DNA of 58,218 nucleotides, taken from positions 1 through 58,218 of IMG/VR virus record IMGVR_UViG_3300046171_000069; one strand, written 5' to 3'. Position 1 is the stretch's first letter. Each line of letters opens with the position of its first letter. Shown piece by piece: positions 6,147 through 39,635 of the stretch. Under the pieces are notes generated by a model. That model saw only the letters and a list, made by a program, of their open reading frames with translations. It was not told the DNA's origin and searched no databases. This DNA is from a virus. The position numbers and the translations under genes were made by a program.

Positions 6147-12646
<6,500 letters not shown>

Positions 12647-18600: not shown

Positions 18601-21600
18601 TACTTGGTAACACGTTACACCCAACCACTGCGGCTCTTTTACGCGAAGGTGAACTAACTGAAGCATTAAAAGTATTAGCGAGCCTTACACCTAATAAGGA
18701 TCTTGCGCGGATTGCCAATGCCTTCGCTGACAAGCTAGGCAAAACAAAGGTTAAGTTGTTCTCGTCTAAGGCTAAGGATAGTGTTGCCGGGTCGTTTGAC
18801 CCTAAGACGAACACGATTAATTTAAATACCGCTGACGGGATAAGCCAGCATACGTTAATGCACGAGGTAGGCCATGCGCTAACTTCGGCAACGTTGGCCA
18901 ACAAGTCACACCCCGTAACAAAACAACTCACTAGTCTTTATAACGACGTTAAAGACAAGTTCGGCACTGCGTATGGCGCTAAAAATCTAGATGAGTTTGT
19001 TTCTGAAGCACAATCTAACGAACGTTTCCGTGCAGAACTCGCTGGGATTAACCCTGACGGATCAAATATTAACGCGCTCCAACGCTTTCTAAACATAGTT
19101 GGGAACTTATTCCGGCAAGTAGTGGGTAAAAAACGTAAAGACATTGAGTCCGCTATGACTCAGGCTGACGCGCTAATTAATGAAATCCTCGCTCCTGCAC
19201 CCGAGTATCGAGACGCGAACGCCCTCGCTATGGAAAGCACTTATGCTGGGGTGAAACAAGTAGCGGATAAAATCGATGCGTTACAAAAAACAGTAGGAAA
19301 GCCCTTAACCAAAAAGGGTCGAGCAGAATTCGGGCAGTTGGGCAAAGAAACAATAGATTCTCTTGGAGAGAAATACGGCGATTTGGCTCTTAAGTTCTTA
19401 GATATGAACGCTTATATAGACGTCGCAAGAGCAACTAACGCTAAACTCGGTACGGTAGCTCAAAAAGCTCTTGTCGCAATGGAAAGAATGCGGGGTGCGT
19501 CAGCACAAAGAGATGACGCTACTTACAAGGCTATACAACCTATGGAGCGATGGTTTGACAGCACAACTCCAGAGCAGACAAAGCTGTTTAACGATATTAT
19601 TTATAACCGTGAGTACGGCTCTACCATCTTCCAAGTGGACCCCACGTTAACTCGTGCACAGGCCGAGAAGAAGTACAAAGGTAAGCCAGTAGACGGTAAT
19701 GATCTATGGGCTATCTGGCAAGAAAACCAGAAGCAGTGGAAGAAATTAGAGCCTGAAGGTAAAACAGTCTACAAAGACATGCAGGCGTTTTACCGTAAGC
19801 AATTTGAAGAACTAAAAGAAGTTATATTTAGCCGCATCGAAACGATGGCTGATGGCGATACTCAGACCATTGCAAAGCTAAAAACTGAGTTTGAAAAGAA
19901 GTTGTTTGATCGAAAAGGTATGGATGTCTACTTCCCGCTAGTTCGTGAAGGCAGATACAAAATAGGTTTCCGGTACAAGCCCGGAAAAACACCTAAAGGT
20001 CAAGATAATTTTGTGTTCGAGATGCACCAGAACCGGAAGGACTGGTTAGCGCAACTTCGTGAGATTGAAAGTAATCCTGATATGGAGTTAGTGCGTTCTT
20101 CTGATAATGAATCGTTTGTGGATTATGCGAAACAAGCACCTTCGTCTTCGTTCGTAAACCAGACATTAAAGATGATGCAGGCGAAAAAAGTAGACGGTGA
20201 AGTTCAAGAAGCATTTATGCGGATGGTGGTTTCTACGTTACCAGAATCTTCGTTAGCTCGTTCACTACAAAGTCGAAAAAATACAGCCGGTCACGAGACT
20301 GATGCGCTCTACGCAATAAAGACTAAAGGATACGACCTTGGACGTCAGATAGAAAAACTAAAATTCTCAGGAAGTATGCAGAATATTCTATCTGATTTAG
20401 AAAAGGTATCACGGACAGAATCCGAAAAGTTTAAGCCAGAAGAGCAATGGAAACTCGAACAGTCCATAAAAGACTTACAGAGTCGAATGAATTTTGCTGT
20501 AAGCGGAGCTAAGTACAAAGAAGTAGAAGGAGTTGTACGAGTAGCTAACCAAATGGCGTTTGTAGGGACTATTGGTTTCAACACAGCGTCCGCTATGGTG
20601 CAAACAGCGCAGATACCTATGGTTGTCATGCCTATGATGATGGCTAAGTATGGAGTAAAACCGACACTACAAGCTATGTATCGCGCGATGCGACTAGTCA
20701 TGAGTGCACGTAACCATCGTCCAGAACTAGATAACTTATCCGCAGTAAAGGGTAAGCGGCTCGCACAAAAAGCCACCGACGCCGCAGGTAAATTCTCTCC
20801 TGCGTACGGCCTAGATGCGTATTACAAACAGGATGGTGACAAGTTTGTCGTTAGAGATGATATCGATCTTAGCAAAGCTGAAAGAAAAGAACTTGAAGAG
20901 CTTGCGCCTTTAGTAAAACAAGCATCGGACCGTGGACACTTAAACCGTTCTTTCATGGCTGATGCAGTCGGTTTGCTAGAAGGAGGTAGAGCAAAACGTG
21001 ACGACGGAATGGGGTCAAAACTTTTATCTGGTTTAGACACCGGTACAGCTATATCTGCCATGATGTTTAACCAAGCAGAACGTTTCAACAGACAAGTCTC
21101 TATGGTGCTGGCTTATGATTTAGCTAAACAAGAAGCGAAAAAGAAAGGCGAGACTATTAGCGAAGACGTTTTAATAGAAGAAGCGTTTAGAGAAACACAC
21201 CGGTTAAATGGCGGCTCGACATTAGAAACAGCGCCCCCAGTAGTTCGAGAGAACGTAGGCCGCGTGGCGGGTATGTATAAGTCCTATGGTATGCGGATGT
21301 ATACCACCATGTTTAGCGTAGGCGCTAATGCGTTAGGTGTGTACGACAAGATGCTAAAAGAGCAAGGTCTGTCTGATGCAGAGATAAAAGAACGTGTGTC
21401 AGTCGCACGTAAACAAGCCTTCGGCATCCTTGGTTCTTCGATATTCTTCTCGGGTATACACGGCGTCCCTATTTACGGCGCTATACAATTAGTATATGAC
21501 CTGTTTGCAGGGGATGAGGACGACGACTTTAACTCTGTGGTACGAGACTATGTAGGTGAAGGTTGGTACAAAGGCGCGGTTAACAAGATACTCTCCGAAG

Positions 21601-22381: not shown

Positions 22382-22603
22382 TCACATTTTACGCCAAAAA
22401 CGTACCCCTAAGCACCCATTCTCAATCCTTACTCGACTAGTTATCTCCCAGCCTTTCTCGGTGCATATACGATTCACTTCTTTTATAGCGTCCTCGGTAT
22501 TGATACACGGGATGAATATAGAGGTACCGATACTCATGTTGTCCCAGTTGACTTCAATCCGTACCCCATCAGGTGCAAGATCATAAGTCCTCAAGATTTT
22601 CAT
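22382..22603 (-). CDS. Small conserved phage protein, last gene of the early block
   Basis: A protein of 73 residues starting MKILRTYDLAPDGVRIEV. I chose this ATG over one 18 bases upstream because that N-terminus matches small proteins I recall from alphaproteobacterial phages. It has an alpha/beta composition ending in LGVRFWRKM, without cysteines beyond the central IPCINTEDA and RICTEKG. It overlaps the end of the primase-helicase gene by about 23 bases. Function unknown. Confidence 0.65.
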   Translation of the reverse strand: MKILRTYDLAPDGVRIEVNWDNMSIGTSIFIPCINTEDAIKEVNRICTEKGWEITSRVRIENGCLGVRFWRKM

Positions 22604-25409
22604 CGTCGGGTTCCATGTCAAACTTCATAGCAATCACATCCGTAGGAGGTAGCTGTAGGTTGGTACCCTTTGTAAGCCGTACCTTCTTACGTTTGCCTTG
22701 GCACTTACTGATAATCTCGCTGACCAAGTGCGCGTAGTTTATTTGCAAATCACCACACCACTCCTTCAAAGGTTTAGGTTTAACATAAAACATCTTAGTG
22801 TCTGTTTCGTACCTAGCGATCAAACGTCCACGCGCAACCTGCTCGGGGATTACATGTTGGTCTAACCCGTTATCGTGTGTGCCTCGATTGTCCATCGTGC
22901 TTTTTATCTGAAGGATGTAGCTAATGTTTTCGCTAAAGAAGTCATCGAGAACATCGTAGACGCTACCTGCCATCTCATTCATGTTGCGCTTGTTTTGCGC
23001 GACTAGTTCAGTCACGGCCCACTTAAATACCTTCTGAACATCGAAGTCGTGCAGACCCGCTCGTTTAGCTATGAGCAAGCCGGATATGGTTGACGCTATA
23101 GTTGCTGACCAGAATCGGTTTTCGGACGTTAGCTCGGCCACCTTGTCTACGCGCTTCTGCACGTCTAGAACGATCTGACGGCACTCTGATAGGTTTTTAA
23201 GGATGTGCTGTATGTAAATCACCCCCGCGTGTCCATAGTTGTTCAGAAGGCTATTCTCGAAGGCGTCAGTGGTTTCCTTGTCTTTCACTGAGTCGAAGAT
23301 ACGTTCCACGCGACACTCAAGTACCCGCTGTGCCTCTGCTTTCGGCATAGCTTTCGCCATACTGATACGCTCTACAACGCTGGTGTTGGCGGTATACATC
23401 ATCAAGAGACTCCACCGGTCTCCACGGTAACGTTCTACGTTCGAGCTTTGAGACATACGCCCACGCTGTTGCCCACTCGTTCCTTGGTAAACAAGTTCTG
23501 ACATCTGCTTGGGAGCCATGTTTGTGATCTCGTCGATACCTGTCGGAAGACTGTGCATCAACTCTGCACGGTTCATCTTAAAGTTGTAGGTATCATCCTT
23601 CTGCAACACGAGCTGTTCTGGGTCGCCCCATATACCTGACGCGGCTAACAGTAGGGCGGTCTTACCGACACCGGAGTCTTTGTTATAGAAAGACACAGTG
23701 CCGCAGTTGGTATTCAGGAACTCCATCAACGGACTACCAAACCCCATGCCGAATGCAAACTGCTGAAGAACAAACCTATCTTCATTCCACAGTGACAGGT
23801 TTTCACGCCATGCCTCGTAGGTACCTTTAGGTTCAAAGGCTGGAAACAATCCTACTGTTTGGTTAGACGGCGGGTTGAACTCAACGCTATCAGCAGTGAC
23901 TTTTTGATTCCCAAGAATGAATCCACTCATGTCGTCAGTCCAACCAAACTGACGGTGCGCTTGATCTGCTGTGCTGGTAGCTTGCAACTCATCTACCCAA
24001 TGCAATGTATACGTCATTAGCTCATCCATTTTCTTCAAGGTAACGCCTCTCGAAGACAGCGCCTTACGGAATTCTTCTGTCGATGTGACAGCACTCATAG
24101 GCAAAGTGAACTCCCGCACACCGTCTCTCGGTAAGTGCAGACGCATAACTATCGCCTCGCCTACCTCGGGGTCGTGTACGCGTTTCACAACATACAAGTC
24201 GTTGTGGTACAGCCGCTTCTCTTCTACGTCACCTTCTTCATTAGTCGTCCTAATATATACCCCGCCGTTCACACCACGAACGTAAGGCGGAGGATACTTA
24301 GGTATCTCATAAGTTGTTTTAGGTTGGTTAGGTATCTCTAGTGCCGGGGCTTCAACATAAGTGCCGTCGTCCCCAACCTCGGCTTCTTTGAGCCGCCTAC
24401 CCAACACAATCGGCGATTTTACCTGCCCCCACTGCGGACAGTTCGGGCACACGTCAGGGTTAAACTCATCAAACTTCGCACACGTGTACGGACCTTTGAT
24501 TTGTCTGAGCTTATCCTGAGTATCTTCTGGCGTGTATTCGGGATGGTTTTTGGAGATGATGTGCATCGCCTTATCACTATCCGTACAGAACTTAGCGATA
24601 GATAACCCCGCTCGCCAGAGAGGTTCGCTTGTTTCTTCTTGGTGCCGGATGATGTTGTACAACTGCTCACAGCCATCACCACGTTGAGTCTTCACCAAGA
24701 TATCTTTAAACACATTTTCTTGATTACCCATCAGGTTGTGCATTGTTTGGCTCAACTCTTTGGGTATGTGTTTAGTCGGAACTGGTATCATTTCTCCGCC
24801 AAGCAATTCGGAGAATGTGTCAAAAACGACAGTCTCAAATCGCTCACCTAAGCCAAAAAAGCCTACGTCCGACGGAGGATTAGTCTTGTAGTTATGTGTG
24901 TCAGGAACTCTTAACACGCGTGCACCATCAGCGGTTACCGCAGGGTCAGCTAAGAAGTTCTGTTTTGCACACAAACGCTTCAGTCTTTCTGCTACGGGAA
25001 ACCAATCCTCATAGCACACCGGTTCCGATAGAAACCAATAGACGTGTACACCACGCCCCGAGTTAACCATCGTCGGTGTTGGTAGTTGGTTGGCACTACA
25101 AAACTTACGCAGTGCTTTGATTGCTTCTTCTTGCGAAGCAAAGTCTTTTGTCGGGCCACAATCGAGGTCAAGAAAGAACGACTGGAGATGTTTTACATTA
25201 TCAACTTTACGGGAGTTAGCTTCTTGGAACGTTGCTAGCCCGTAGTATACGTCGTACCCCTGCTGGTCAAACTGCGTTGCGGCTTCCACAACATCGTCGA
25301 TAGAGCTATAGAATTTTTGTGTCTTACGCTCGTCCGCCGATTTTGCCGCAAATATGCAATAGTGCCCCTCGCTACTAAGTACCCTCTCTAAAAATGTTTT
25401 CGTTTCCAT
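22581..25409 (-). CDS. Primase-helicase fusion: AEP/RepB-type primase plus DUF927-like helicase
   Basis: From METKTFLERV this is about 942 residues; the ATG was preferred over an upstream in-frame start. Residues about 76-185 carry archaeo-eukaryotic primase-type motifs: LDLD (80-83), SGRGVHVYW, and VLRVPDTHNYK. A Cys pair (CPNC) follows the primase part near residue 310. The C-terminal half has a Walker A SGVGKTALL (about 575) and GIDEITNM as a likely Walker B, in the style of DUF927/superfamily 3-like helicases. It would lay primers and unwind the phage genome. It is the second-last gene of the minus block. Confidence 0.8.
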   Translation of the reverse strand: METKTFLERVLSSEGHYCIFAAKSADERKTQKFYSSIDDVVEAATQFDQQGYDVYYGLATFQEANSRKVDNVKHLQSFFLDLDCGPTKDFASQEEAIKALRKFCSANQLPTPTMVNSGRGVHVYWFLSEPVCYEDWFPVAERLKRLCAKQNFLADPAVTADGARVLRVPDTHNYKTNPPSDVGFFGLGERFETVVFDTFSELLGGEMIPVPTKHIPKELSQTMHNLMGNQENVFKDILVKTQRGDGCEQLYNIIRHQEETSEPLWRAGLSIAKFCTDSDKAMHIISKNHPEYTPEDTQDKLRQIKGPYTCAKFDEFNPDVCPNCPQWGQVKSPIVLGRRLKEAEVGDDGTYVEAPALEIPNQPKTTYEIPKYPPPYVRGVNGGVYIRTTNEEGDVEEKRLYHNDLYVVKRVHDPEVGEAIVMRLHLPRDGVREFTLPMSAVTSTEEFRKALSSRGVTLKKMDELMTYTLHWVDELQATSTADQAHRQFGWTDDMSGFILGNQKVTADSVEFNPPSNQTVGLFPAFEPKGTYEAWRENLSLWNEDRFVLQQFAFGMGFGSPLMEFLNTNCGTVSFYNKDSGVGKTALLLAASGIWGDPEQLVLQKDDTYNFKMNRAELMHSLPTGIDEITNMAPKQMSELVYQGTSGQQRGRMSQSSNVERYRGDRWSLLMMYTANTSVVERISMAKAMPKAEAQRVLECRVERIFDSVKDKETTDAFENSLLNNYGHAGVIYIQHILKNLSECRQIVLDVQKRVDKVAELTSENRFWSATIASTISGLLIAKRAGLHDFDVQKVFKWAVTELVAQNKRNMNEMAGSVYDVLDDFFSENISYILQIKSTMDNRGTHDNGLDQHVIPEQVARGRLIARYETDTKMFYVKPKPLKEWCGDLQINYAHLVSEIISKCQGKRKKVRLTKGTNLQLPPTDVIAMKFDMEPDDENLEDL

Positions 25410-25498
25410 GTACCCACCCATTGCTTGCAACGTTACGGCAGAGACGTTTGTCCCCCGCCCTGCCGTAACGCGGTTCAATTACCATTGTGACGAGTAAC

Positions 25499-26204: not shown

Positions 26205-26875
26205 TCAGTCTCCTTGGTTTGCATTCGCAGGTGAGTAAACAAAACCGCTTACCTCTGCAAAGGGTTGCCCTTGTTGGGGCGGGTTTAATGAAATCGCTTC
26301 GTTGGCCTCATTGCTTTGTGCTAACGAGACAACGAGATCTAGCTCCTCTTCGTTGAGGGCACGAAGGCTTGAAAGACTAGCTTGGCACGGGGCTATCCTG
26401 ATCAAACGAACAACGTGTTGTCACAGAAATAACAGGGTGTGCTGTGAGAAGAAAGATGTTGTGCATAGGCTTGCATTGGCATCTTACCTTCTACCGCTCT
26501 ACCAAATACCGATGTTGCTGGTAGTTGTAGTTGGTACACCTTGCTCAGGTCGTCCTCTAAAACAACCGCTAAACGCTGTGCGAATCGACACGCACGTCCA
26601 CCAGCTTGTCCTGACCCCTTAATGTTCTGGGGGCAATCCATACACCGAGATGCTTGTCTGTTATGCACAGGCACATCAGGCGATGGCTGGTTTGTATCCG
26701 CCGACCAGCACGTAGGTGGTGATGGGGTGTTGGGATCGAATGCACCGGCGTAGTAAGAACGAGATACCTTAGCGGCGTTTACCACAACAAATTTTATTGT
26801 GTCTTCTACCGTAGATACCTGTCTCCCACCCTCGATGATGCGAAACACTCCTCCACTTAGGCTAATCCGGTCCAT
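26205..26875 (-). CDS. Conserved phage protein with Cys motifs, frame broken by indels
   Basis: The N-terminal 158 codons read cleanly from MDRISLSGGVFRI and contain CWSAD, CMDCPQN and ACRF, a possible metal-binding set. After MQAYAQHL the frame stops. Shifting frame at a C-run near 26440 and at two more places before 26350 joins it to a C-terminal piece containing NEEELDLVVSLAQ that ends at 26205. At least three one-base errors are needed. The start overlaps the HTH gene stop (TGATG) and the end abuts the SSB ribosome site. Function unknown. Confidence 0.6.
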
Positions 26876-27194
26876 CAGACATCATCGTCAATAGGAGCGG
26901 TAAACATGTCAGCCCAATGCTCATCAGACTTATCAACCTCTGCCTGAGCTTCTAGACCATCAACCGTAATCTGAGCTACATCAACACCCAGTGCTTCGTT
27001 AAACGAAACAACGTTCGTTGTGCTGACTGAGTCAGGGCTTCAGATACATCGGCAATAGAAAACCGATAGGTGTTACCTACTTTTATGTAGGTGTTCTTGG
27101 GAATGTGTCCCTTACGCACCCAGCCTCTGATCGTAGATACAGATACAGAGAAGTGCTTGGACAGATCTTCGATTGGCACAAACGGACCGTTCAT
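26875..27194 (-). CDS. Helix-turn-helix DNA-binding protein (excisionase/MerR-like), frameshifted
   Basis: The N-terminal 50 residues (MNGPFVPIEDLSKHFSVS, STIRGWVRKGHIPKNTYIKV, YRFSIADV) are a classic helix-turn-helix-17/excisionase-like domain: helix, turn, RGWVRKGxIP recognition segment and a beta wing. A one-base shift near 27010 continues the frame for about 50 residues, through AQITVDGLEAQ to DEHWADMFTAPIDDDV, stopping at the start of the next gene (TGATG). It is probably a small regulator or DNA-remodelling accessory. With no integrase visible, a regulator is more likely than an excisionase. Confidence 0.65.
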
Positions 27195-29689: not shown

Positions 29690-30360
29690 TAGTTACTCCC
29701 GTTGTGTACACATACTGTTACTGGACAGTGGCGCTTACATAACCCACTCGGTCGGGCATTCCACACGTTACGTTTCTCAGCCATCTGCATAATCGAGTAG
29801 ATATTTGTCCACTTAGTCCACAGCATACCCGCATCGGAATCGGCGTAGCTATCTTTTACTAGGTCATTACTCACGACGAACAACAACCCAGCACGTACGT
29901 GCGTAATCTTTGGGTAGTGTGCGAACACCAACAGTGCCATCAACTCTAGCTGTCCCTTGTCAGCGTACTTCGCACTCTTACCTGTCTTGTAATCAATTAC
30001 CCATGCCAACCCGTCTTCTTCGTTGATAATCAATAGGTCAGCAATACCTCGGTACCACACTTCTTTGTCGTAGAAGCTACACGGTAACAAGTTCTCAGTT
30101 ACACCCAGCTTCTCTTCACACAGCTTCGCACCTTTCTTGGCGCTAAGTGAATCAAGCATGGCTTGCGCGTAGTCAAACATTTTAGGGAGTGGAGTGCCGT
30201 CTCGGATGTATTCCTCAGCGGCTGTATGGAACGCATTGCCGTAGCGAATAGCTTCAGTCTCAACGAACGGATACTCTTGGAGAATCTTCTCGTGATAGAA
30301 CTGTTTAGGGCACTGCTCAAAGGCTTTCGCCTTGCTAAACGACCACGGCGCTATACTCAC
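29689..30360 (-). CDS. PD-(D/E)XK exonuclease, Cas4/RecB-like with Cys cluster
   Basis: A protein of 223 residues. N-terminal FEQCPKQFYHEKI and YGNAFHTAAEE are the usual helix and His motif of PD-(D/E)XK_1 nucleases. The active-site strand pair is GIADLLIIN and WVIDYKTGK (D-x(n)-D-x-K). Cys17 plus the C-terminal CKRHCPVTVC form four cysteines placed as in iron-sulfur AddB/Cas4-type nucleases. It likely resects DNA ends in recombination-linked replication. It overlaps the polymerase gene at the start (ATGA). Confidence 0.8.
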   Translation of the reverse strand: MSIAPWSFSKAKAFEQCPKQFYHEKILQEYPFVETEAIRYGNAFHTAAEEYIRDGTPLPKMFDYAQAMLDSLSAKKGAKLCEEKLGVTENLLPCSFYDKEVWYRGIADLLIINEEDGLAWVIDYKTGKSAKYADKGQLELMALLVFAHYPKITHVRAGLLFVVSNDLVKDSYADSDAGMLWTKWTNIYSIMQMAEKRNVWNARPSGLCKRHCPVTVCVHNGSN

Positions 30361-32197
30361 TCACAATCTCCATACGACCTACCTGTACCACTCTCGCAGT
30401 CGATAGGTAAACCTGCCGCCCATGTTGGGACTTGGCGCATACAATCTTCGATGTACGCTTGTGCTTCGTCCACCTCTTCGTCACGTACACAGGCCACAAT
30501 CGAATCGTGAACTGTTAACACAACGCGGTATCTCTTGCTAATTTGTAGCATCTGCTCACCAATTATGCAACGCGCTACTGCTTGACACAGGTTCTCTGTA
30601 GCCTTCCCGCCGTAGATTCGAGTTCGGCCTCGACGGGTCTTGTAGCTGTACTCCAACCCGTTCTCGGTTTGTTCTGCTGATAAGTCGTTATACCGTAGCA
30701 ACAACCCTGACGGTAATCTGACAGCACGTTCCGATCCCAACACTTCCAACACACCAGCCTTACCTACCTGCATAGTGTCACCGTTGGTCATGTAACGAAT
30801 CATGTTCTGGCAGTTGCGCCACAAGTGGTTGATCTTCCAGTTGGACTCGCGATAAATGTTTATGATACGACGAGCCTCATCAAGCTCCACTTCAAACCCA
30901 AAGTTCTTTAGCTGTGCTTGGAACTTGACTGCGCCCATACCGTAGCCCGCACCGAGGATGGTGGTCTTACCTACAAACCGTTGATCTTTTGTCACGTCTC
31001 GCTTCGTCGCAACCATAAGATCCGCGAAGCCATCTTTACGTAAGACGTCCTTCTCCCTGCAGCGAATGCCGGCTGTTAGATCGTCCTGCCTCGCCATCCA
31101 TGCAAGGACCCGTGCTTCTATCTGAGCAGAGTCCGGCATCGATTAGGGCTATATCCTTCTGGTGAGAGGATACTGCTCTTTAACTTCTTACCGTTGGTCC
31201 ACGACTAGGTAAGGTTCTGCATATTGATCTTGTCATCACCACCCCAGCGCCCAGTGTGTGCGGCGTAATAACGTACGGGTACGGGTAACATGCCCACGCT
31301 TACCTGATGTCGATAAATCTCTGCGTGCGCGTTTCTTCAAGCGTACTCTTATTACCTAACCGCGCGGCAACCACTGCCTGTACTCGTGAGTCCTCGTGAT
31401 CCGACAACGCCTTGAATGCTTCGTCAGACTTAGCGAAACGCGAATGTTTCTTTGCCCGTGGTTGCACTGATCTTCATGGGCGGCTTGACACCTAACCCTT
31501 CGAGAACTTCTGCGAACTTCGGGTTAGACATGAGATCTTCTTTAGACACACCCGCTGTTTCGAGTAGCTGGTCCTTCTGCTCTTTTGTATCTTCAAGGTG
31601 TTGTTCGAGTAGCCCGATATCCAGATCTAACACAGGTTCAACAAACATACGGAGCGTACAGTCGATCAACTCCAACTCCTGCTTGGGGAACCCTTTACGT
31701 AGAAAGATGTTAAAGAGTTTGTAAGTTAGTTCGACGTCATTGATGCAGTAGTCACCGTACTGAGAAAGCTCCTGTGCCGTGAAATCGGCACGGCGTTTGC
31801 CTAACGCGTTTAGAACTTCGGTCCCCTTAGCGCCGATCTGATATCGTTCAGCAAGCGCCTTGAGACTTCCGCCAGCGTCCACCCCATGTAAAGCACGGGC
31901 GATACAAAGAGTGTCAGCGTAAATGCGAGGATGAACATCAAAGAGCCAAGACAAAATAGCGCCGTCAAACATAGTATTGTGAGCAAGTACCATAGCGTCA
32001 GACCAATCGAACGTGTGTAGGTATCGTTTGATCTCATCATGTGAACCACTTGCCCATTCAGTGCCTTCATTGTTTACCTTAACTCCTACACCGATAACTT
32101 CAAAACGACGGTCGCGGATGTATTCTTCGGTTGTTATCTTAGACAGAGAGAAGTCTTTGTCGTAGTACGTCTCAAAGTCCAAAGTGATCAGGTTCAT
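30357..32197 (-). CDS. polA: Family A DNA polymerase with 3'-5' exonuclease, frame broken by indels
   Basis: The N-terminal 255 codons carry the proofreading motifs: LDFETYYD (Exo I), AHNTMFDGAILSW (Exo II) and YCINDVELTYKLF (Exo III). At 31130-31440 at least three one-base errors interrupt the frame; other frames there give GKKLKSS and DxDSAQIEARVLAW (motif A). The C-terminal part has motif B (RFVGKTTILGAGYGMG) and motif C (VLTVHDSIVA). The repaired product is about 613 residues, the normal size for phage Pol A enzymes. It is the phage replicase. Its stop overlaps the nuclease gene. Confidence 0.88.
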
Positions 32198-33134: not shown

Positions 33135-33152
33135 GGTAGTCCACGGACTACC
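33135..33152. repeat. 18-bp palindrome, flavour A, upstream of the VRR-NUC gene
   Basis: Reads GGTAGTCCACGGACTACC on the plus strand: 8-bp arms around a 2-base centre. It sits between the terminator at 33165-33188 and the AAGGAGA box of the nuclease gene. Same family as the copies at 37932, 38005, 38590 and 39667. Confidence 0.85.
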
Positions 33153-34641: not shown

Positions 34642-35866
34642 TCACATGTCTCCAGATTTTATGTGAACTTGCTTACCTGTATCAGGCTTTGCTGTTTTGT
34701 TGTCCAGTATGCACCATAGCACAGGACAGTCCCATTGACCCCATGATCCAAACACGTACCCATCAGTCAGTACCACACAGGCTTGCGGGTTGATGTTGTT
34801 GTCACGTATGTAGTTGGGTACACACTCGACGCTGGTACCACCACCACCGACTGGCTTGGTCGCCTTGGGTAGGTTGTCAAGCTCGTGTGTATCGTATGAC
34901 TCGTCACCACGTACGCTTGGAGTCCCAGTACAACACGCGTATGCGTTCTGGCATGAGCGATTGACAGATCTGACGTATCTCACTCATGAACAATGTCAAC
35001 TCGGTTTGACCAATAGACCCTGACGTGTCAATGGCTATGACAAGCTCGCCGACCTGATCGCTGATACCACTGGGCATATAGTACCCAGACGATACGTAAC
35101 GCCTGTTAGGACGTGACCACGTGACTATAGTCACTACCCGCACACGTGTTCTGGATGAACTCGCGTAGCACCTCGCGCCAGTTGATCTGCGGCTCCAGCA
35201 ACTCACCGAACCGATCACGCTCGGAGCCATCGCCTACCTTGCCAGCGACCATCGCACCCTGACGTATGGCCTCGTCGATGTCACGTGCAAGCTCGCGCTT
35301 CTCGTCGTCGGTCAACTCCTGAGCACCCTCCCAGTCGTGCTCGTCGAACCCGCCATGCGTATTGACTCCACTGGCAACGTTGGTATCGGTCACCGTCACC
35401 GTCGCCATCTTCTGGTGACGAGTTCTCACATAGATCCTTGAACACTCGGGCCGCGTCCCAACCACGGTACTTGTAGTCGCGGTGCCCTTGGGCTGGCATG
35501 ACTGCCCAGCCGTCGGTGTTGTCGTCGCTGATCTTGATGTTGATCACATGGTCACATGCGATGTTGGCAAGCGTTGGCGTCTTGCTTGTACATCCACTCC
35601 CACGTGGTGAGATGTTTGTACAGCTTGTGGTACACCTCGTGTAGTACCAGAAACCGAAGCTCAGGATCGTTTATCTCCTCGACAAACGCACGTCCGTACA
35701 ACTCATCACGTCCGTTAGTACACGCGGTGGGCACAGTGTCAGACACCGTGCGATCACCGACCATCACCACACCCGCCAGCGCTACATACTTGGGGTTGCT
35801 GATAATGTCATACACAGCTTTGCTTACACGTTGCTCCGCTGTCAGTTGTTTACCTATAGATAACAT
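34642..35866 (-). CDS. Metallopeptidase-like/VWA protein (MoxR partner), frame broken by several indels
   Basis: From MLSIGKQLTAEQR the first fragment carries a zinc-peptidase-like HEVYHKLYKH. The second and third fragments are acidic linker (TDDEKRELARDIDEAI). The fourth has a von Willebrand A domain with the MIDAS residues DTSGS, then GGGGTS and LTDGY in the last fragment. Frames shift near 35575, 35400, 35125 and 34920. The repaired product is about 408 residues. The N-terminal peptidase-like domain plus C-terminal VWA matches proteins that work with MoxR ATPases; the ATPase is the next gene upstream. I infer a chaperone or remodelling complex. Confidence 0.7.
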
Positions 35867-35880
35867 GTCGTTCTCCTTGT

Positions 35881-35897
35881 GGTAGTGCGGCACTAAC
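35881..35897. repeat. Palindrome, flavour B (one base shorter)
   Basis: GGTAGTGCGGCACTAAC, an imperfect 17-base copy 15 bases 5' of the start of the VWA protein and directly before AAGGAGAACGAC. It overlaps the last codons of the MoxR gene. Confidence 0.75.
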
Positions 35898-36987
35898 TAC
35901 TTCTTGTCTGCGCGAACATGTAGTTGTTAGCCATCGCCCAGTCAGTGAACTTGCGGTTAGTCATCACGACCTTGCGGTGTGCGTAGCTGTCACGTGTCAC
36001 ACCACCAGCAAACATACCCTGCGCTTCCATGTCGAGACGTGGCAAGTACGTCATCCACGCGTCGATCCAGTCAGCCGACATCGTAGCTAATGACCTGTAA
36101 ACAACCATACACACAGCCGCCGCGCTGTCCGGTACGCGTGCGTTCAGCGGGTCATCCTTGATCGACTGGAGTGACGGTAGCTGATCGGCCAGCTTCACAA
36201 ACGCCATGAGGTCCATCGCACCACGGTCGCCGATTGTACCCATGAGTAAACTTGTCAGGGTCTGATCGTCATACAGGTGTCGTTGCTTGAGCCAGTCGGA
36301 CGCGGCTTCCAGCGAGCGCGGTGTCACAAACGCCGCACGTTGCGCCTTGGGATGGTAGATGTAGGGATTGTCATCTGGATCTTTGACATCCTCGAACCCG
36401 TGGAATAACTGCGGGTTGTCTTTACACCAGCCCAGTAGTGCGTGATCGACACCGGCATTGATCGCATAGTCCTCGATCCACTCGATGTTGCTCGGCTTGC
36501 GTAGCGTCACCACTGTTATGCGGTTGCGTGCGTGTGGTGGTAACAAGTCACCGACACCCTCGGCCCCAAGGTTAGTGGTAGCAAACACTATCGAGTCAGG
36601 GTGTAGCTCGTAGCCGCCGACCTTGCGCTCCAACATCACACGTAGTAACGCGTTCTTGACTGCGGGGTTGGCCTTACCGTACTCGTCGATCATGAGGATG
36701 ATCGGCTTGCCATGATGCAGACCCAGCTCCTCGTTCGTCGCAAATTTGACGAAATCGGCAGAGTCGAGCGTTGCCATCTTGGGGATCATGATGTCGCCTA
36801 GATCCTTGGTGGTACAGTCGAAGTAACACGGTACGTGGTCAGGTAGTGTGTCTGATAACGTGTTAAGTAGTGAGGACTTACCCGTCCCCATGTGACCCTG
36901 TACAAGGATCGTCCGTTGATTACCGCCGTGCTCGATAGCGTTGGCGACTTGGTTCAGGTTCAGTGCATACATTTGTTGTGCGTTCAT
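35893..36987 (-). CDS. MoxR-type AAA+ ATPase
   Basis: About 364 residues from MNAQQMYALNLNQV. Walker A is GHMGTGKSS, Walker B is IILMIDEYGKA, sensor 1 is VFATTN, and the arginine region is HARNR, all in AAA+ order. A C-terminal helical domain follows (GTIGDRGAMDLMAFVKLAD). MoxR ATPases act with VWA proteins to remodel or activate target complexes; the VWA/metallopeptidase gene follows directly. Phage copies are often labelled cobaltochelatase subunits by homology, but no cobalamin gene is here. The start was chosen from TGGAGAACAAC. Confidence 0.85.
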   Translation of the reverse strand: MNAQQMYALNLNQVANAIEHGGNQRTILVQGHMGTGKSSLLNTLSDTLPDHVPCYFDCTTKDLGDIMIPKMATLDSADFVKFATNEELGLHHGKPIILMIDEYGKANPAVKNALLRVMLERKVGGYELHPDSIVFATTNLGAEGVGDLLPPHARNRITVVTLRKPSNIEWIEDYAINAGVDHALLGWCKDNPQLFHGFEDVKDPDDNPYIYHPKAQRAAFVTPRSLEAASDWLKQRHLYDDQTLTSLLMGTIGDRGAMDLMAFVKLADQLPSLQSIKDDPLNARVPDSAAAVCMVVYRSLATMSADWIDAWMTYLPRLDMEAQGMFAGGVTRDSYAHRKVVMTNRKFTDWAMANNYMFAQTRSS

Positions 36988-37000
36988 GTTGTTCTCCAAT

Positions 37001-37039: not shown

Positions 37040-37975
37040 TTAGATGTCGAGTGATGGTAAAGACTTGATGGCATTGTCCACGGCACGTTTGGTCTCGGCA
37101 CGTAGAAACGCGTCATCACGTAGTGCGTCCGGTGTGATACCACGCAAGGCATCCTCTAGCTGTAAGCGCATAGCCGACATCTGAGAGTCACCGGTCACGT
37201 TGCATACGTCGAGCAAGTCCACCATGTCGAGCACGTTGTCCACGAGCGAGTCACGGAATATCTTTTTCTTCTCGCTGTCGCCGTAGTCGAGACGTTCTGA
37301 CATCTTAGTGAGCGCGTCGTATACCCGATGCCACACATCGTCCATCGCACGGTTAATCATCTGAGAGTAAAAACCCTCGTAGTGAGACTTTAGTTGCTCA
37401 GTCGCTTCAGTGCCGATGTCAATACGAAAGTCGCCCGCGTCAGGTAGTGGGATGTAGTTGAGCCGGAACCCGAACTTAGACGCAATGGAATCGACAGAGG
37501 GGTAGTCGTCCGCACGGAACAACGCACCTAAACGTGCTTGTGCTTGACTGATCTCCCACTCGTACGAATCGAGAAACACCTTGGCTAGACGCTCGTACTC
37601 GTTTTGCATGTCGGTCATGGCTTGGTGGTACTTGGCATATTGCGCGGTAGGTAGTAGGCGCAGACCCGTGTCAGACCAAGGCATAGACATAGAGTAGTGC
37701 ATGTTGCGGATGTTACCTGTCAGCTTTTGGATAGCGGTTAGCTCCTCGCTGTTACCTAGTAGCTTCTTATGCACGTTGGCAATACCGGAGTCGGCACCGT
37801 TAGTGCGTGTCACATCAGTTGATGCACGTTTGTCGAGCTTGCGGCCTGTCCATGTGCTGATGGATAGCTCAACCAACATAGCAGAGGACGCGATGGATGG
37901 CGTACTGATAGCTGGTGCTACGTTGTCAGTTGGTAGTCCGTGGACTACCGAAGTGTTGCTATTGTCGTGTTGCAT
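37040..37975 (-). CDS. Helical protein upstream of MoxR (DUF3150-like)
   Basis: A protein of 311 residues, mostly helical (MTDMQNEYERLAKVFLDSYE, MINRAMDDVWHRVYDALTKM). I recall a DUF3150 family that sits beside MoxR/VWA pairs in phages and plasmids; the assignment is from architecture and place, not a search. The first 20 residues are odd: codons for SVVHGLPTDN are one copy of the 18-bp palindrome, so the true start may be later (MLVELSIST). The start at 37975 is supported by AAGGAGAACGAC. Confidence 0.65.
   Translation of the reverse strand: MQHDNSNTSVVHGLPTDNVAPAISTPSIASSAMLVELSISTWTGRKLDKRASTDVTRTNGADSGIANVHKKLLGNSEELTAIQKLTGNIRNMHYSMSMPWSDTGLRLLPTAQYAKYHQAMTDMQNEYERLAKVFLDSYEWEISQAQARLGALFRADDYPSVDSIASKFGFRLNYIPLPDAGDFRIDIGTEATEQLKSHYEGFYSQMINRAMDDVWHRVYDALTKMSERLDYGDSEKKKIFRDSLVDNVLDMVDLLDVCNVTGDSQMSAMRLQLEDALRGITPDALRDDAFLRAETKRAVDNAIKSLPSLDI
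37932..37949. repeat. 18-bp palindrome, flavour A, inside an open frame
   Basis: GGTAGTCCGTGGACTACC, lying within the first codons of the 37040-37975 gene as annotated and about 70 bases 3' (in transcript sense) of another copy at 38005. It could mark the true gene leader if translation starts downstream. Confidence 0.8.
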
Positions 37976-38004
37976 TGTCGTTCTCCTTGAACGTTGTTGT
38001 AGTT

Positions 38005-38022
38005 GGTAGTCCGTGGACTACC
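38005..38022. repeat. 18-bp palindrome, flavour A, leader copy
   Basis: GGTAGTCCGTGGACTACC, 29 bases 5' of the ATG at 37975. It lies between the gene start and the structured element at 38032-38100. Confidence 0.85.
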
Positions 38023-38031
38023 GTGGTTAGG

Positions 38032-38100
38032 ACTGGGGAGCCGTGACACGCCATATGTAAACGTGTACATACGCAGGAATTACGCGCACGACCCCCCAGT
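38032..38100. other. Nested inverted repeats (structured element) in the gene-free region
   Basis: Three arm pairs nest in order: ACTGGGG (38032-38038) with CCCCAGT (38094-38100); CGTG (38042-38045) with CACG (38087-38090); TATGTA (38054-38059) with TACATA (38066-38071) around AACGTG. The set could form a long hairpin in RNA or a cruciform in DNA. It lies in the 5' leader region of the 37975 gene. No protein frame covers it. Confidence 0.55.
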
Positions 38101-38162
38101 TGTATTATTATCTCACATATAACAAATCATGTCAAGTTTTACGTTATTGTGGGTAGAAGTGT

Positions 38163-38251
38163 AATGTTCTGTTGTATTGTGTATTGTTCTTATAATGTTC
38201 GTTTTTGAAATGGCGTAACTTTTTGATTTACAAGCAATGTTCGAATGTTCG
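38163..38251 (-). repeat. Octamer repeats AATGTTCG, inverted half of an iteron-like array
   Basis: Five copies of AATGTTC(G/T) or ATTGTTCT start at 38163, 38183, 38194, 38236 and 38244, all in the orientation opposite to those at 38307-38548. Two of them are directly adjacent (38236 and 38244). No gene is supported here. Confidence 0.75.
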
Positions 38252-38276
38252 CGTTTTTGAGGAGATAAGAGCTACC

Positions 38277-38303
38277 CTGAGAGGGGTCTCTCGATTCTCT
38301 CAG
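38277..38303. other. Central hairpin between inverted octamer arrays
   Basis: CTGAGAG (38277-38283) pairs with CTCTCAG (38297-38303), with an internal GAGAGGGGTCTCTC. It lies exactly between the left octamers (opposite strand) and right octamers (forward strand), which makes the whole region roughly symmetric. Candidate replication origin centre or regulatory hub. Confidence 0.6.
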
Positions 38304-38306
38304 AAA

Positions 38307-38548
38307 CGAACAATACAAACGGAAATACTTTTACAGAAGCGTGTAATTTTTTAGAAAACGAACATTATAAAGATTATTAAGATTAGATAAGATAGAACAC
38401 TTTTTGATAGGCAAGAATTGTCAACGCCTTGCATAGGATGGTACCAGATGTCACCAAAATATAATGTACGCACATGCTTTTTAAAAAGCGAACATTAGCC
38501 GAACATTACGAACATTAGCCGAACATTACAAAATCGTTTCCGAACATT
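38307..38548 (+). repeat. Octamer repeats CGAACATT, forward half of an iteron-like array
   Basis: Seven copies of CGAACA(T/A)T start at 38307, 38359, 38489, 38500, 38509, 38520 and 38541. Four are spaced 9-11 bases apart (about one helical turn) at 38489-38527, as for protein-binding iterons. Together with five inverted copies to the left they make 12 sites in about 390 bases. Confidence 0.8.
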
Positions 38549-38554
38549 GTGCTG

Positions 38555-38728
38555 AGGCTCGGCGCGACATGATTAACTGGTATCAACTTAGTAGTCCGTG
38601 GACTACCGTAGCCCGGGAGCAGGCCGCATTGCACACACGTGATAACACGTTAGGCTCGGCGCGGCACAAATAACTGGTATCGAAAGGCTCGGCGCGATGA
38701 GGCTCGGCGCGGCATATATAACTGGTCT
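38555..38728 (+). repeat. GC-rich direct repeats, three full units and one partial
   Basis: Units start AGGCTCGGCGCG at 38555, 38652, 38685 (partial) and 38700; three continue to AACTGGT(A/C)TC after a variable 8-9 base middle. A related segment with its second half inverted occurs near 32518-32545. No gene is supported in this stretch; the overlapping minus-strand frames are repeat-driven. Confidence 0.75.
38590..38607. repeat. 18-bp palindrome, flavour A, between GC repeats
   Basis: AGTAGTCCGTGGACTACC (one mismatch at the first base), between the first and second GC-rich repeat units and not directly before a gene. Confidence 0.75.
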
Positions 38729-38742
38729 CAAACGGCAGGCAC

Positions 38743-38765
38743 AAAAAAACCCCGCCGAAGCGGGG
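38743..38765 (-). terminator. Intrinsic terminator on the minus strand
   Basis: CCCCGC (38750-38755), CGAA loop bases, GCGGGG (38760-38765), with seven A to the left forming the U-run on the minus strand. It ends the first early transcript, directly after the small membrane protein gene. Confidence 0.85.
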
Positions 38766-38772
38766 TGAGTTG

Positions 38773-38984: not shown

Positions 38985-39635
38985 TTAGAGTGATTTGATC
39001 ACTGCGTTGATGGCTTTTTTGACTTTGGCCGCGTCGTAGTCGGGTGCCTCGTCTTTTTCGCATTGAGCCACTACTTTTGCGAGCGCTTCCAAGATTTTGG
39101 TCTTAGGTGACTTAGGTGTTTTAGCCTGTCCACCCGTACCGTCAACTACATCTTTAGAGTATGCCCAGCCTTCCTGAAACTCTCCCTCGACCTCTTTCCC
39201 TTCCACATCGTGAACGGGGATTTTCTTAGACCAAATCACTTGATCTAATTGCTTAGAGATTTTACCGAGTCGGGAGGCAGGTTGACGGTTCCAATAATCC
39301 CAGTTGCCAGTAGTGGGTTCGGTTTTTTTCTGGGTAGGTGTTTTAGTCACATACTGCATACCCTCTTTACCGAGCGCTAGAATTTCCTGCGCTCCCGCTG
39401 GTAAGCCTTTCGCAATGTGGTCTATTAACCATTTTCGCTCGGCCGGAGTGCATCCCTCTGGGTTATTTTCCGCGTGAAATGGTGAACAATGTTCAGCCTT
39501 TTCGAACCCAGCCTCCTTAAGTGCGCATAGCACTGAGAAGCGTAGATCCTCGGTGGTTAACTCAGCATTAATAGATGCTGTGATCATTTTTCCTAGGCCC
39601 GAGTCTAGGTTGCGGGTAAATGGTACATTTGTCAT
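38985..39635 (-). CDS. First early gene, hypothetical protein
   Basis: A protein of 216 residues, the gene nearest the divergent control region and so probably among the first transcribed. The N-terminal half contains LRFSVLCALKEAGFEKAEHC and GCTPAERKWLIDHIAKGLPA. The C-terminus is Lys-rich and helical (YDAAKVKKAINAVIKSL). No known domain is recognised. Its position between a palindrome and a terminator suggests an abundant, self-contained early transcript, perhaps a host-takeover protein. Confidence 0.65.
   Translation of the reverse strand: MTNVPFTRNLDSGLGKMITASINAELTTEDLRFSVLCALKEAGFEKAEHCSPFHAENNPEGCTPAERKWLIDHIAKGLPAGAQEILALGKEGMQYVTKTPTQKKTEPTTGNWDYWNRQPASRLGKISKQLDQVIWSKKIPVHDVEGKEVEGEFQEGWAYSKDVVDGTGGQAKTPKSPKTKILEALAKVVAQCEKDEAPDYDAAKVKKAINAVIKSL

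Follow-up and report, generated by a model that had tools for sequence, protein, structure and literature searches.

The origins of phage-inducible chromosomal islands (PICIs) carry two iteron sets on either side of an AT-rich region (PMC6092414). In Rep of the Staphylococcus aureus pathogenicity islands (SaPIs) and in Cch2 of the staphylococcal cassette chromosomes (SCC), the C-terminal domain reads the origin iterons (PMC7581432), and related primases have been proposed to recognise origins through C-terminal winged helices (PMC5862659). Here, we describe two opposed arrays of 8-bp boxes in the virus record IMGVR_UViG_3300046171_000069, a marine phage of 58,218 bases that was analysed whole (hereafter the window), with terminase, portal and head genes on the plus strand and the replication operon on the minus strand. 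Judging from sequence organization, we consider it likely that the region 38107-38548 is a bidirectional replication origin, the boxes of which would be bound by a phage-encoded archaeo-eukaryotic primase (AEP) fused to a DUF927 helicase. The region contains the following elements, including a consensus site for integration host factor (IHF), the host bending protein:

38107..38135, minus strand: sigma70-type promoter, leftward, of the replication/early operon, 11/12 matches
38163..38170, minus strand: left-arm box 1, AATGTTCT on the plus strand, conserved in aligned relatives
38183..38190, minus strand: left-arm box 2, ATTGTTCT on the plus strand, conserved in aligned relatives
38194..38201, minus strand: left-arm box 3, exact
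38216..38228: IHF-consensus site YAANNNNTTGATW (TAACTTTTTGATT), at the same position in relatives and also in the cultured Pseudomonas phage Rollin
38236..38251, minus strand: two inner left-facing boxes with a spacing of 8 bp, located in most relatives at +20/+28 relative to the IHF site
38307..38314, plus strand: right-facing box CGAACAAT, conserved in aligned relatives
38343..38393: candidate AT-rich duplex-unwinding element, centre 38368, with the lowest stability of any 50-mer in the 58-kb window
38359..38366, plus strand: right-facing box at the AT-rich tract, seen in relatives
38406..38414: conserved TGATAGGCA element, 91% conserved
38463..38470, minus strand: lone left-facing box AATGTACG within the right arm, 94% conserved
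38489..38527, plus strand: four right-facing boxes (38489, 38500, 38509, 38520), the first three 97-100% conserved
38541..38548, plus strand: outermost right-facing box, in the nearest relatives only

Exact CGAACATT occurs nine times in the window, every copy at 38194-38548, and 100 dinucleotide shuffles of the window yielded 1.95 copies on average, with none of the 100 reaching nine. With near copies included, we recovered the twelve octamers reported by the first-pass annotation, five left-facing (38163, 38183, 38194, 38236, 38244) and seven right-facing (38307, 38359, 38489, 38500, 38509, 38520, 38541), within 386 bp, and four right-hand copies are indeed about one helical turn apart (spacings of 11, 9 and 11 bp). 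That inventory overlooked a thirteenth, conserved box, the left-facing AATGTACG at 38463-38470. In an alignment of 13 sequences, the window among them, box columns were 95% conserved compared with 73% for other columns (Mann-Whitney p = 3e-19). The least expected feature of the array is the segregation of box orientation.

Relatives were drawn from viral contigs with the DUF3150 gene (37040-37975) and two other genes. The array adjoins the same gene module in 46 dereplicated metagenomic relatives, with DUF3150 identity down to 26%; that is, the octamers are present in related phages at the same place and with the same symmetry, and this symmetry is kept despite changed surroundings, as had been predicted for an origin. 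Additionally, 23 further genomes or contigs were read in stretches for box clusters, and in most of them the 7-mer AATGTTC or a shifted form makes up one two-armed cluster per genome, extending to genomes in which DUF3150 is merely 29-34% identical. Arrays with a switched word stand at the same place as well, with GTAAC types in relatives L040, L044, L046 and G022, TGTACC in L146 and CGACATT copies in G008.

The geometry of these arrays was compared in 47 dereplicated arrays with a score of at least 5, counting the window and Rollin, which were anchored on IHF-like sites with one mismatch accepted. The IHF-consensus site sits between the left triple and the inner box pair, and is exact in 34 of the 47 arrays, a count that is partly selected because anchors with one mismatch were accepted; whole genomes hold 0-5 exact matches each. 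Relative to this site, left boxes lie near -53, -43, -33, -22 or -12, the inner pair at +20/+28, and right-facing boxes near +145 and then at about +250 to +328. As a control, 1387 IHF-like anchors in 24 genomes reached scores of at least 5 solely at the array locus. All 144 words in the left zone face one way and 0 the opposite, whereas the right zone has 192 words facing back and 17 facing forward, the window's single forward-type copy there being the box at 38463. The 50-mer of lowest stability has a median position of +153 and, in 43 of the 47 arrays, falls between +110 and +215 relative to the IHF site. Extra IHF-like sites (ATCAATGGGTTA) were noticed among the right-arm boxes of relatives G014 and L100.

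A DNA search of the array region against cultured phages gave no match; the same layout is found in Rollin with a different word, TATGCAA. Specifically, Rollin carries TATGCAA at 260, 282 and 304, followed by the IHF site TAAGTGGTTGAT. TTGCATA comes next, at 528, 537 and 546, immediately ahead of an AT-rich tract, and further single copies of TATGCAA and TTGCATA stand at 617 and 673, respectively. This is the sole such cluster of a 7-base word in the Rollin genome, and its record has no annotated gene there. Profile searches of Rollin matched the AEP-DUF927 protein (E 2e-160), the SNF2 helicase and the polymerase, and did not find HTH_17, DUF3150 or MoxR; its primase-helicase is 28% identical to the window protein. 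No such array was present in Planktothrix phage Pag-Yong1, which has a DUF3150 relative and the ATPase and gave no AEP-DUF927 match, or in phage DSL-LC04, which has a related terminase and another primase. DUF3150 and MoxR were rejected as binders, as neither was found in Rollin and Pag-Yong1 has both without the array.

The locus combines features of iteron origins, namely clustered direct repeats near helical phase, an AT-rich unwinding element and an IHF-consensus site. Like PICI and SaPI origins, it is accompanied by an initiator helicase of the DUF927/SaPIbov1 Rep family. In contrast to those systems, the array adjoins the first operon promoter, the AEP primase is fused to the helicase, the IHF-consensus site is at a fixed position, and the inner pair and mirrored orientation are conserved across the phage clade; moreover, the window is a complete phage with its own terminase, portal and major head protein rather than a helper-dependent island or satellite. 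The array would work like a PICI origin, yet by position and element type it is not one. SCCmec shares a homologous helicase (Cch, 5dgk) and non-coding direct repeats, with binding by the helicase C-terminal domain shown for Cch2 and proposed here; the putative SCC origin differs in having three short iterons next to cch2, with mirrored arms not described (PMC7581432). The PrimPol-PV1 supergroup likewise pairs an AEP primase with DUF927 and a C-terminal domain with a suggested role in origin recognition, whereas the available part of that paper describes no origin for DUF927 members (PMC5862659).

Opposed box arrays, an IHF bend and an unwinding element are also combined in Escherichia coli oriC. 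The window has counterparts of these in its opposed arrays, IHF-consensus site and candidate unwinding element, but its boxes are not DnaA boxes and a phage-encoded initiator is proposed. DnaA boxes (TTWTNCACA) occur in the window only at 24963 and 26661, none in the array region, and a DnaA/oriC-type origin was accordingly rejected. In the literature, which we covered incompletely, we found no description of the mirrored-array layout for phages of this kind.

The first-pass annotation had named two possible binders, a helix-turn-helix (HTH) protein and the primase-helicase:

22581..25409, minus strand: AEP primase fused to a DUF927 (SaPIbov1 Rep/Cch-type) helicase, the proposed initiator; listed open reading frame (ORF) 22581-25478
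26875..27194, minus strand: HTH_17 protein with an acidic tail, the rival binder, frameshifted in this record

Since Rollin has the layout but gave no HTH_17 match, the primase-helicase fits better. Relatives suggest Met24 of the ORF as its start. Its N-terminus matches AEP primases, and its DUF927 part matches SaPIbov1 Rep (8tch, E 5.8e-18) and SCCmec Cch (5dgk, E 1.7e-14) by sequence and these helicases by fold (Foldseek 1e-17 to 5e-15). A winged-helix-like C-terminal domain occupies residues ~885-955 of ORF 22581-25478, and the modelled C-terminus shows a helix-helix-strand-strand order with conserved basic residues. We infer that the AEP-DUF927 protein is the box binder. A scan of bacterial genomes with the AEP profile gave two loci only.

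It is also conceivable, though unlikely, that the region is an origin at which the small HTH_17 protein occupies the boxes and would then recruit the primase-helicase. Both proteins, together with the SNF2 helicase and others, occur wherever the replication module does in the relatives checked, and the HTH_17 recognition helix is well conserved, in line with a GAACATT word that is mostly retained. Cooperative binding to tandem sites is common among small excisionase-like proteins, and a different, weak HTH protein adjoining the AEP gene in Rollin might be a replacement. The family profile, however, finds no HTH_17 homologue in that phage, and relative G008, with several CGACATT words, has a recognition helix identical to that of G014, where GAACATT is kept. 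The HTH_17 frameshift in the window relative to its relatives could be a sequencing error or real.

The leftward promoter bears on another reading, under which a regulator of transcription from 38107-38135 would use the boxes as its operators. It comprises a -35 TTGACA (38135-38130) and, after 17 bp, a -10 GATAAT (38112-38107) with an extended TG; the -35 is 100% and the -10 92% conserved in the 13 aligned sequences, and a distance of 27 bp separates this near-consensus promoter from the left arm. Most boxes, however, belong to the right arm, 170-410 bp upstream of the promoter, where neither a divergent promoter nor a rightward gene is conserved. A simple operator array needs neither a conserved AT-rich tract nor mirrored arms, and separate palindromes are better operator candidates; we regard a transcription control region as improbable.

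These palindromes are lineage-specific. The window's own is of 16-18 bp, and one of its five occurrences forms a stable arm of a structure upstream of the array:

38005..38022: lineage-specific palindrome GGTAGTCCGTGGACTACC, with further copies at 33135, 37932, 38591 and 39667

The upstream three-arm structure of the first-pass annotation does fold better than shuffles (z = -3.3), but one of its stable arms is a copy of this recurrent palindrome. Almost all phages checked in the clade (not G011) carry 3-13 copies of a 16-18 bp palindrome of their own, the majority of them located in the early region; near relatives may bear different ones. In nearly all, the palindrome also lies just upstream of the start of a gene, ~160-230 codons long and corresponding to 38985-39635 in the window, which is located between the terminase region and the array. 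This gene tends to track palindrome type, as the window protein is 56% identical to that of G001, which shares its type, and 24% identical to that of G025, though neighbouring genes are 85-100% identical. Its product is probably a palindrome-binding regulator. As a box binder it was rejected, since a direct search found it in one other genome only and the hypervariable family tracks the palindromes. The exchange of palindromes and hypervariable gene between near-identical phages looks like a switching repressor-operator (immunity-like) system.

Short-repeat arrays also occur at centromeres, and the terminase gene is 2.5 kb from the array, so that a partition or packaging site was considered. 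The proteins scanned included no ParA/ParB homologue, DSL-LC04 has a related terminase without the array, and the unwinding element and IHF site would be left unexplained; such a function seems very improbable.

Several observations weigh against an origin bound by the primase-helicase. The array is 12.7 kb from the proposed initiator gene 22581-25409, whereas the PICI origin lies directly 3' of rep. Rhizobium phage RHph_TM3_14A has an AEP-DUF927 protein and an AT-rich gene-free stretch (19340-20125) with no clear array. Foldseek with the C-terminal domain alone gave no significant PDB match, though many top matches were winged-helix proteins. Co-variation of word and protein was not formally shown across the word-switched contigs, because few of them carry the AEP gene. 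Finally, the minima of GC skew are 1.6-3.3 kb away from the array in nine genomes and 6.6 kb away in Rollin; they do not discriminate, because they coincide with the switch of gene direction, and GC skew was dropped as proof of an origin on account of this confounding.

Other features at and around the array are as follows:

35893..36999, minus strand: MoxR-like AAA ATPase, second gene of the leftward operon
37040..37975, minus strand: DUF3150 gene, first gene of the leftward operon
38277..38303: CTGAGAG/CTCTCAG hairpin
38556..38729, plus strand: 3-4 direct repeats GGCTCGGCGCGACAT..AACTGGTATC (38556-38584, 38653-38681, 38686-38696, 38701-38729)
38749..38766, minus strand: intrinsic terminator of leftward small genes on the right side

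The hairpin, previously placed at the array centre, is 66% conserved in the 13 aligned sequences and gone from most relatives, and was accordingly rejected as the centre of the origin. The GC-rich direct repeats downstream were confirmed (GGCTCGGCGCG at 38556, 38653, 38686 and 38701), and their core, ending in AACTGGTATC, is kept beside the array in most relatives read. The region had also been called gene-free, and we found no conserved gene up to the terminator. A conserved block beside the proposed origin (34642-36999) comprises the MoxR-like ATPase, DUF2201/VWA proteins and DUF3150. Elsewhere in the window, the DNA polymerase (30357-32197) is split into two ORFs by a gap of ~290 bp (31139-31430), being a single ORF in Rollin and the Rhizobium phage, and a large plus-strand ORF (6147-10865) contains long repetitive coding repeats with GAACCA/CCTGAA and GATGAC units, rich in Glu-Pro and Asp.

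Under the favoured reading, the C-terminal domain of the fused AEP-primase/DUF927 helicase would bind the boxes while IHF bends the left arm, and the opposed arrays would place two helicase rings face to face across the AT-rich tract. This tract between the arms would melt, and the rings would load and then depart in opposite directions, giving bidirectional replication, with the fused primase laying the first primers. The adjacent leftward promoter would drive transcription of the replication operon, and box occupancy may also control it. More tentatively, and with slightly less than even confidence, we propose an unrecognised class of bidirectional origin, common to free-living phages whose initiator is a fused AEP-primase/DUF927 protein and built from a rigid mirrored-box scaffold, one IHF bend and one unwinding tract. 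In this class the geometry would outlive the word, protein and word would switch together as origin specificity types, and the satellite (PICI) origins would be a compact branch of it and not a type of their own.

Few phage origins have been mapped, and this proposed one is recognisable from sequence in dozens of uncultured phages and one cultured Pseudomonas phage, which makes its working parts directly testable. Its fixed geometry and changing words offer a natural experiment on the joint specificity change of initiator and sites. The finding also ties a clade of phages to the initiator family of SaPI and SCCmec, and calls into question the published claim that no other known replicon has the PICI origin layout.
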